From Bacteroidota bacterium (GTDB lineage Bacteria > Bacteroidota > Ignavibacteria > UBA10030 > UBA8401), in NCBI GenBank assembly GCA_008933835.1, contig WBUG01000022.1:1-45964 (forward strand): 45,964 nucleotides of DNA. The letters run 5' to 3'. Shown here in pieces: positions 10,105-20,180 of the stretch (position 1 is the stretch's first letter; the number at the start of each line of letters is the position of its first letter). Made by a program: the position numbers and the translations under genes. A model generated the notes under the pieces. It was not told the origin of the DNA. It saw only the letters and a list, made by a program, of their open reading frames with translations, and made no database searches.

Positions 10105-11001
10105 ATGACGCTCTTCTATTCGGACCTCTACACCATCCCGCTCCCCGAGGGTCACCGCTTCCCCATGGAGAAGTACCGTCTGCTCCGCGAGGCGCTGACG
10201 GAACGGGGACTGTTCACGGAGGAAGAGATCCGCCCCGCCGTTCCGGCGACGGAGGAACAGCTGCTCCTCGCCCATACGCCCGCGTACGTCCGCTCCATCC
10301 TCGACGGCACCGCCGCTCCGGCGGTGATGCGGCGCATCGGCTTCCCCTGGAGTCCGGCGCTCGCACGCCGTTCCATGATGACCGTCGGCGGAGCGCTCGG
10401 CGCCGCGGACGAGGCGCTCCGTTCCGGCGTCTCCGCCAATCTCGCCGGCGGGACCCATCACGCCATGCGGAACGAAGGGGAGGGGTTCTGCGTCTTCAAC
10501 GACCAGGCGGTGACGGCGCTCCGGCTGCTGAGCGGCGGACGCGTCCGGCGCGTGGCGGTGGTGGACCTGGACGTGCATCAGGGGAACGGGACCGCGGAGA
10601 TCCTCGGCGGACGGGACGACGTCTTCATCCTCTCCATGCACGGCGCGAAGAACTTCCCCTTCCGGAAGGTCCCGTCGACGCTGGACGTGGAGCTCGCGGA
10701 CGGCACCGGCGACGGCGAGTACCTCTCCGCTCTCGCATCCGCGCTGCCGCTGGTGTTCGCATTCCGGCCGGACATCGTGCTCTACCAGATGGGGGTGGAC
10801 GTGCTGAAGGAGGATGCGCTCGGGCGTCTGCATCTCTCCCTCGACGGCATCGCCGCGCGGGAGCAGATGGTGTACGGCGCCTGCCGGCGTCACGGCGTTC
10901 CGGTCTCCGTCGCGCTCGGCGGAGGCTATGCGAAACCCATCGCGCACACCATCGAGGCGCAGCTCCGCTCCTTCGCCGTGCTCCGCTCCGTCTTCGGTTG
11001 A
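10105..11001 (+). CDS. Histone-deacetylase-fold zinc amidohydrolase
   Basis: The 298-residue protein has the complete HDAC/acetylpolyamine amidohydrolase active site. It shows the His pair 118-119 in GGTHHA, zinc ligands D156 and H158 in VVDLDVHQGNGT, a third zinc ligand D232 in QMGVDVLKEDALG, and the transition-state tyrosine Y275 in ALGGGYA. The compact length fits the class IV-like bacterial branch (COG0123). It should deacetylate small acetylated amines or lysines in the cytoplasm; the substrate is unknown. It begins four bases after the DASS transporter gene and is co-transcribed with it. The start at 10105 gives the expected N-terminus MTLFYSDLY. Confidence 0.94.
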   Translation: MTLFYSDLYTIPLPEGHRFPMEKYRLLREALTERGLFTEEEIRPAVPATEEQLLLAHTPAYVRSILDGTAAPAVMRRIGFPWSPALARRSMMTVGGALGAADEALRSGVSANLAGGTHHAMRNEGEGFCVFNDQAVTALRLLSGGRVRRVAVVDLDVHQGNGTAEILGGRDDVFILSMHGAKNFPFRKVPSTLDVELADGTGDGEYLSALASALPLVFAFRPDIVLYQMGVDVLKEDALGRLHLSLDGIAAREQMVYGACRRHGVPVSVALGGGYAKPIAHTIEAQLRSFAVLRSVFG

Positions 11002-11053
11002 ACTCTCCTCCGCGCCGTTAAAATTTCCTAATGAGTACTAGCGCATTCTAAAT

Positions 11054-11220
11054 TGCCTGCGGGCTTTCCTCCGCGTAGATTGCATCCAGTCGAAACGACT
11101 CGGTCCGCTCCGACTGTTGTGGGGTGCAAGATGCCGCGCCAGGGGAGGTGCGCTTGCAGTTCATCGGAGACGGAACGAGCCGGCAACGGCACGGTGAGCG
11201 AACCGTGCCGTTGTCTTTTT
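11054..11220 (+). ncRNA. Candidate structured RNA in the 312-base gap 11002-11313
   Basis: No credible gene lies between 11002 and 11313, but the stretch folds well. CTCG-G-TCCG-CTCCGA (11099-11113) pairs with TCGGAG-A-CGGA-A-CGAG (11165-11180), leaving only one mismatch and one bulge. Inside it TGCAAG (11125-11130) pairs with CTTGCA (11153-11158). Directly within that CGCGCC (11135-11140) pairs with GGTGCG (11147-11152). A 5' hairpin AGTCG/CGACT (11088-11100) competes with the base of the rod, and TTGCA at 11080-11084 could compete for TGCAA. The rod is followed by a strong terminator. It could be a free-standing small RNA or a leader controlling DUF2062. It matches no RNA class I recognise. 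The 5' end is a guess. Confidence 0.35.
11185..11220 (+). terminator. Rho-independent terminator with 12-bp stem
   Basis: CAACGGCACGGT (11185-11196) and ACCGTGCCGTTG (11203-11214) form a perfect 12-base stem with a six-base loop, followed by TCTTTT. It lies about 180 bases after the deacetylase stop and ends either that operon or the candidate RNA at 11054. Confidence 0.88.
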
Positions 11221-11276
11221 AAAATGGCGAAATTCCGCCGTTTCATGCGGTGTGAACCTCCGGTCCCGGTCCGGTG

Positions 11277-19541: not shown

Positions 19542-19937
19542 TCAGGAAAGGGTCTGGGTGAAGGTCCGCAGCACCTTCCAGCGTCCGCCGTGATACTGCA
19601 TCACCGTGGTGATCCGAACCTGTTCGTTATTGAAGAGACCGGTGGAGACCACCTGGGTGAGCGATGCGGGGAACGATGCCGGACGTTCGGCGGAGATGGT
19701 GACGGTGCCGCCGAGCATCGAGACGCGCCGGACGCTGATGGAGCTCTTCGCGGCGTCGCTGCCGAGTTCCGTGAGGGCGAGCGAGACGCCGGCGGTCGCC
19801 AGCTGCTCCGACTGCAGAGAGGACGATACCTCCAGCGCGCGCGCGAAGTTCGCCTGGTCCGCGCCGGAGAAGTTGACGGTGTAGACGCCGAGAATGGTAT
19901 AGACGCCGGTCAGCAGGAGTATCTTAGATGTTCCCAT
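19542..19937 (-). CDS. Small pilin-like membrane-anchored protein
   Basis: The 131-residue protein has a short basic start, one hydrophobic helix (about 5-23), then an amphipathic helix rich in Ala, Ser and Gln (about 25-60), and a beta-rich tail ending RWKVLRTFTQTLS. This layout is like minor pilins or PilX-type proteins, but no GFxxxE prepilin site is visible, so the likeness is only architectural. An excellent ribosome-binding site, AGGGAGGT, lies five bases before the ATG on the minus strand, unusual among these genes. It stands alone between two terminators with its own promoter. Function unknown. Confidence 0.72.
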   Translation of the reverse strand: MGTSKILLLTGVYTILGVYTVNFSGADQANFARALEVSSSLQSEQLATAGVSLALTELGSDAAKSSISVRRVSMLGGTVTISAERPASFPASLTQVVSTGLFNNEQVRITTVMQYHGGRWKVLRTFTQTLS

Positions 19938-20125: not shown

Positions 20126-20154
20126 ATAAAAAACCCCCTTCCAACGGAAGGGGG
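20126..20154 (-). terminator. Rho-independent terminator after the matrixin gene
   Basis: CCCCCTTCC (20134-20142) and GGAAGGGGG (20146-20154) form a perfect nine-base stem with a three-base loop. On the minus strand it is followed by TTTTTTATTCC. It ends the metalloprotease operon. Confidence 0.92.
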
Positions 20155-20180
20155 TCGGGGAAAACCATCGGAATCGGCCT

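Follow-up and report, generated by a model that had tools for sequence, protein, structure and literature searches.

In the stretch of DNA analysed here (hereafter the window, 45,964 nt, to whose full length all whole-window counts refer), a gap of 312 bases separates the end of the stop codon of an HDAC-family gene (11001) from the ATG of a gene encoding a DUF2062 protein (11314). The HDAC-family gene abuts a DASS transporter gene on its other side (stop 10100, start 10105), and the gap embeds the predicted elements listed in Table 1, that is, a promoter, a rod-shaped fold, and an intrinsic terminator whose U-tract ends 94 bases before the DUF2062 start. The sequence-only reading had described a rod of about 80 bases with nested complementary arms preceding a perfect 12-bp terminator at this distance from DUF2062, and both the coordinates of the rod and the terminator agree with our analysis; the three short motifs on which that reading had built a switch, i.e., TGCAA (11125-11129), CTTGCA (11153-11158), and TTGCA (11080-11084), also lie at the positions claimed for them.

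Table 1. Positions of the HDAC-family gene and of the predicted elements of the gap (window numbering).
Feature	Position	Strand	Details
HDAC-family gene (PF00850)	10105-11001		Between the DASS transporter gene and DUF2062
Predicted promoter TTGCCT-N17-TAGATT	11053-11081	+	-35 at 11053-11058, -10 at 11076-11081; matches tRNA promoters
Predicted sRNA transcript, ~130 nt	11088-11220	+	Start ~11088, end in the U-tract; both ends placed from promoter and terminator
Possible 5' hairpin AGTCG-AAA-CGACT	11088-11100	+	Near-isoenergetic suboptimal folds; last bases contested with the rod base
Imperfect rod	11099-11179	+	11099-11140 pairs with 11147-11179; -41.9 kcal/mol
Rod stems	11099-11113/11164-11179; 11120-11130/11153-11163; 11135-11140/11147-11152	+	Predicted fold
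Rod bulges	11114-11119 and 11131-11134	+
Rod apical loop AGGGGA	11141-11146	+
Intrinsic terminator	11182-11220	+	14-pair stem 11182-11215, loop GAGCGA, then TTTTT 11216-11220

In a search of 60 genomes, only this genome yielded a match to the HDAC protein at E <= 1e-30, the other 59 giving none. In the named collection, the closest relatives of this protein belong mostly to Ignavibacteria and Kapaibacterium MAGs, with 50-61% identity. Moreover, in two family members (L034 and L036), the DASS transporter gene is located directly before DUF2062, with neither the HDAC gene nor the RNA in between. The HDAC gene seems to have been either inserted or retained specifically in this lineage.

The structure of the rod is more than chance would produce. 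Its z score is -3.6, with 12 of 5000 dinucleotide shuffles being equally stable, and none of 400 shuffles of the gap contained an equally stable 82-nt window; once GC content was allowed for, 0.14% of the 82-nt windows taken from both strands of the whole window were as extreme as the rod, and these fall in eight places, one of which is the terminator of the gap itself. The terminator (-28 kcal/mol, z -5.9) has a core of 12 perfect base pairs (11184-11195/11202-11213) and is strong on the + strand only. Another strong intrinsic terminator was observed at 20132-20156 on the - strand, after a gene whose product carries a C-terminal sorting-type tail; it belongs to the most structured spot of the window after GC correction.

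As for the promoter, a generic sigma-70 scan returned nothing at its own threshold. A consensus was then taken from the genome itself, using the sites upstream of its tRNA genes, six of which share the promoter TTG-N20-TATATT (that is, TTGnnn-N17-TATATT). The site in the gap, which had already been picked out before this comparison, matches these six promoters in spacing and consensus, its -10 box being off by one base (TAGATT vs TATATT). When the first 98 bases of the gap (11002-11099) were shuffled 20,000 times, the pattern TTG-N20-TANATT appeared in 24 cases. In the whole window it was found three times vs 0.08 expected, each time upstream of a transcription unit and in the orientation of that unit. 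One of the other two (656-684, +) lies just before a response-regulator-like gene starting at about 697, named from its translation alone, and only 12 bases separate its -10 box from the ATG, which points to a very short leader; the other (20035-20007, -) precedes a gene on the - strand with a start near 19937. Given the promoter in the gap, a transcription start near 11088 is expected.

The composition of the region is that of non-coding DNA: the open reading frame of the gap has a GC3 of 0.61 vs about 0.9 in the neighbouring genes, and Pfam returned no match for it. The region of the RNA is present in a single copy in the genome and, at the sensitivities applied, had no match in collections of phages, plasmids, and viral contigs, so we rejected the idea of a mobile element or repeat.

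The search for relatives of the RNA retrieved very little. The comparison by blastn with 60 genomes yielded only short chance matches, and a covariance model of the rod, built from the single sequence, found only itself in 22 genomes of the family and 391 of the class, besides two weak matches (L043, 22.9 bits; L044, 26.6 bits) which both seem to fall within coding sequence and which we attribute to chance; the E value of 0.09 of the latter holds for one genome, among 391 searched. A single-sequence model of the SRP RNA built in the same way, used as a control, matched 21 of the 22 family genomes, including the one of the same genus; since the rod model found only itself, the rod lacks the conservation expected of a housekeeping RNA, even though a fast-evolving sRNA could still escape such a model. 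Covariation support is absent because no homologue was found. The gap with the RNA is absent upstream of eight DUF2062 orthologues of the family (one having only 232 nt of upstream sequence). For HDAC genes from other organisms, 80 loci were retrieved; blastn detected no significant similarity in the 3' flanks of any of them, and the model, run on 50 of the loci, gave no convincing match (best E 0.59).

Based on these data, we suggest, with a probability of roughly 0.6, that the gap harbors a stand-alone, lineage-restricted intergenic sRNA gene (about 11088-11220), in a junction shared with an HDAC gene that is likewise lineage-restricted. The sequence itself shows the structure, the terminator, and the match to promoters of this genome, whereas the production of the RNA and its action are what we infer. 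RNA polymerase would start near 11088 from a housekeeping-type promoter, the RNA of about 130 nt would fold into the rod and the terminator hairpin, and transcription would stop in the U-tract. The RNA might then accumulate and act in trans through the exposed 5'-side bulge CUGUUG (11114-11119) and the apical loop; because the search of this genome for an Hfq gene found none, any action in trans would have to occur without Hfq. Conservation, a supporting rather than a strictly defining feature, need not be present in lineage-specific sRNAs, but the support it would give is absent here. It is also possible that the RNA may be a young transcript without a selected function, and part of the structural signal could belong to the 3' untranslated region of the transporter-HDAC operon.

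The last idea, taken to its end, is the main rival to the sRNA gene: the rod and terminator would represent the 3' untranslated end of the DASS-HDAC operon; the hairpin ahead of the terminator would be incidental, and there would be no RNA gene in its own right. Two abutting genes need some terminator after HDAC, and the HDAC gene is lineage-restricted, like the RNA. However, a promoter of the type used by the tRNA genes of this genome stands between HDAC and the rod, and the terminator is located 181 nt beyond the HDAC stop codon, so that we regard this interpretation as rather unlikely. A different scenario assigns the whole arrangement to the downstream gene, i.e., the promoter at 11053 would drive DUF2062, and the terminator would be conditionally bypassed, as in an attenuator or riboswitch. 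The order of the elements (promoter, rod, terminator, gene) is that expected for such a leader, and the promoter of DUF2062 itself is weak at best (TTG-N21-AACATT, with four of six positions matching in the -10 box). The possible alternative pairings of TGCAA, either with CTTGCA or with the upstream TTGCA, had been proposed as the exclusivity typical of switches, and this proposal found no support. The upstream partner TTGCA shares bases with the -10 box and lies before the predicted start, and would therefore fall outside the RNA; when the pairing was forced in 11060-11222, the fold became 4.7 kcal/mol worse (-73.1 vs -77.8) and the terminator was unchanged. The geometry allows this 5-bp pairing, but it is unremarkable, 7.6% of the 5-mers of the window having a perfect complement 10-60 nt upstream. 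In successively longer nascent chains, the rod was complete before the terminator, no antiterminator appeared and nothing competed with the terminator, which was complete in all the lowest-energy folds listed. Furthermore, the DUF2062 orthologues of the family (53-71% identical) have other upstream contexts, lacking such a leader, the gap, and the HDAC gene. An attenuator of DUF2062 is possible, its positive support going no further than gene order, and we consider a cis-acting leader of this kind improbable.

Translation within the rod deserves a separate comment. A Shine-Dalgarno-like GGAGGTG followed by a TTG (11144-11156, +) is situated towards the apex of the rod, probably by chance. If used, the TTG at 11154 would open a frame of 22 codons ending at 11222, and the transcript would be a short mRNA or encode a leader peptide. 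The spacing is suitable in that GGAGG ends 5 nt before the TTG, but the frame crosses the terminator stem and its TAA (11220-11222) lies at or past the end of the U-tract, so that an RNA ending at the terminator would probably have no stop codon; in addition, the gap has no longer open reading frame with a coding composition. We therefore hold this possibility to be very improbable. The same applies to its combination with the previous scenario, namely, a lineage-specific conditional leader in which a ribosome starting at the loop-borne signals would cover the terminator and allow read-through into DUF2062, which we find equally hard to credit.

If expressed, the candidate would add one more sRNA gene to a poorly studied lineage without a detected Hfq; it touches no larger open question. 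It would then also provide a usable promoter consensus for this genome, the TTG-N20-TATATT shared by its tRNA genes.

The comparison with known RNA classes is in agreement with the description of the element as an unassigned structured RNA, a label that stands, given its stable structure, its genome-matched promoter, its terminator, and the fact that no Rfam family fits the locus, either at the gathering threshold or at E values up to 10. A match to Thermales-rpoB (23 bits vs a cut-off of 77) aligns to the terminator and is due to chance. The candidate resembles 6S RNA (RF00013) in being a rod-shaped single hairpin, but its rod is about 81 nt long and without the large central bubble, and 6S RNA had no match at the locus or, up to E 10, in the genome. 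The bacterial small SRP RNA (RF00169) is likewise a hairpin of about 100 nt; the genome has its own copy elsewhere (G000:C39:26993-27090, 65.3 bits), and the locus lacks the GGAA-loop domain. A CsrA sponge was also considered and rejected: CsrA is present in this genome, but the RNA exposes a single GGA in a loop (AGGGGA). With terminator-based riboswitches and attenuators, the locus shares a structure and then a terminator upstream of a gene, and it differs from them in having no exclusive antiterminator, no Rfam class, and no conservation before DUF2062. In the library searched, no paper mentions both DUF2062 and an RNA motif. An intergenic location, an own promoter, a structured body, and an intrinsic terminator make up the general anatomy of intergenic trans-acting sRNAs. 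Such sRNAs are among the transcripts mapped in Bacteroides thetaiotaomicron (PMC7366714). Compared with generic RNAs of this type, the candidate differs in being known from sequence alone and in having no homologue in the family searched, and it is like them in being intergenic, about 130 nt long, structured, and provided with a predicted promoter of its own and an intrinsic terminator.
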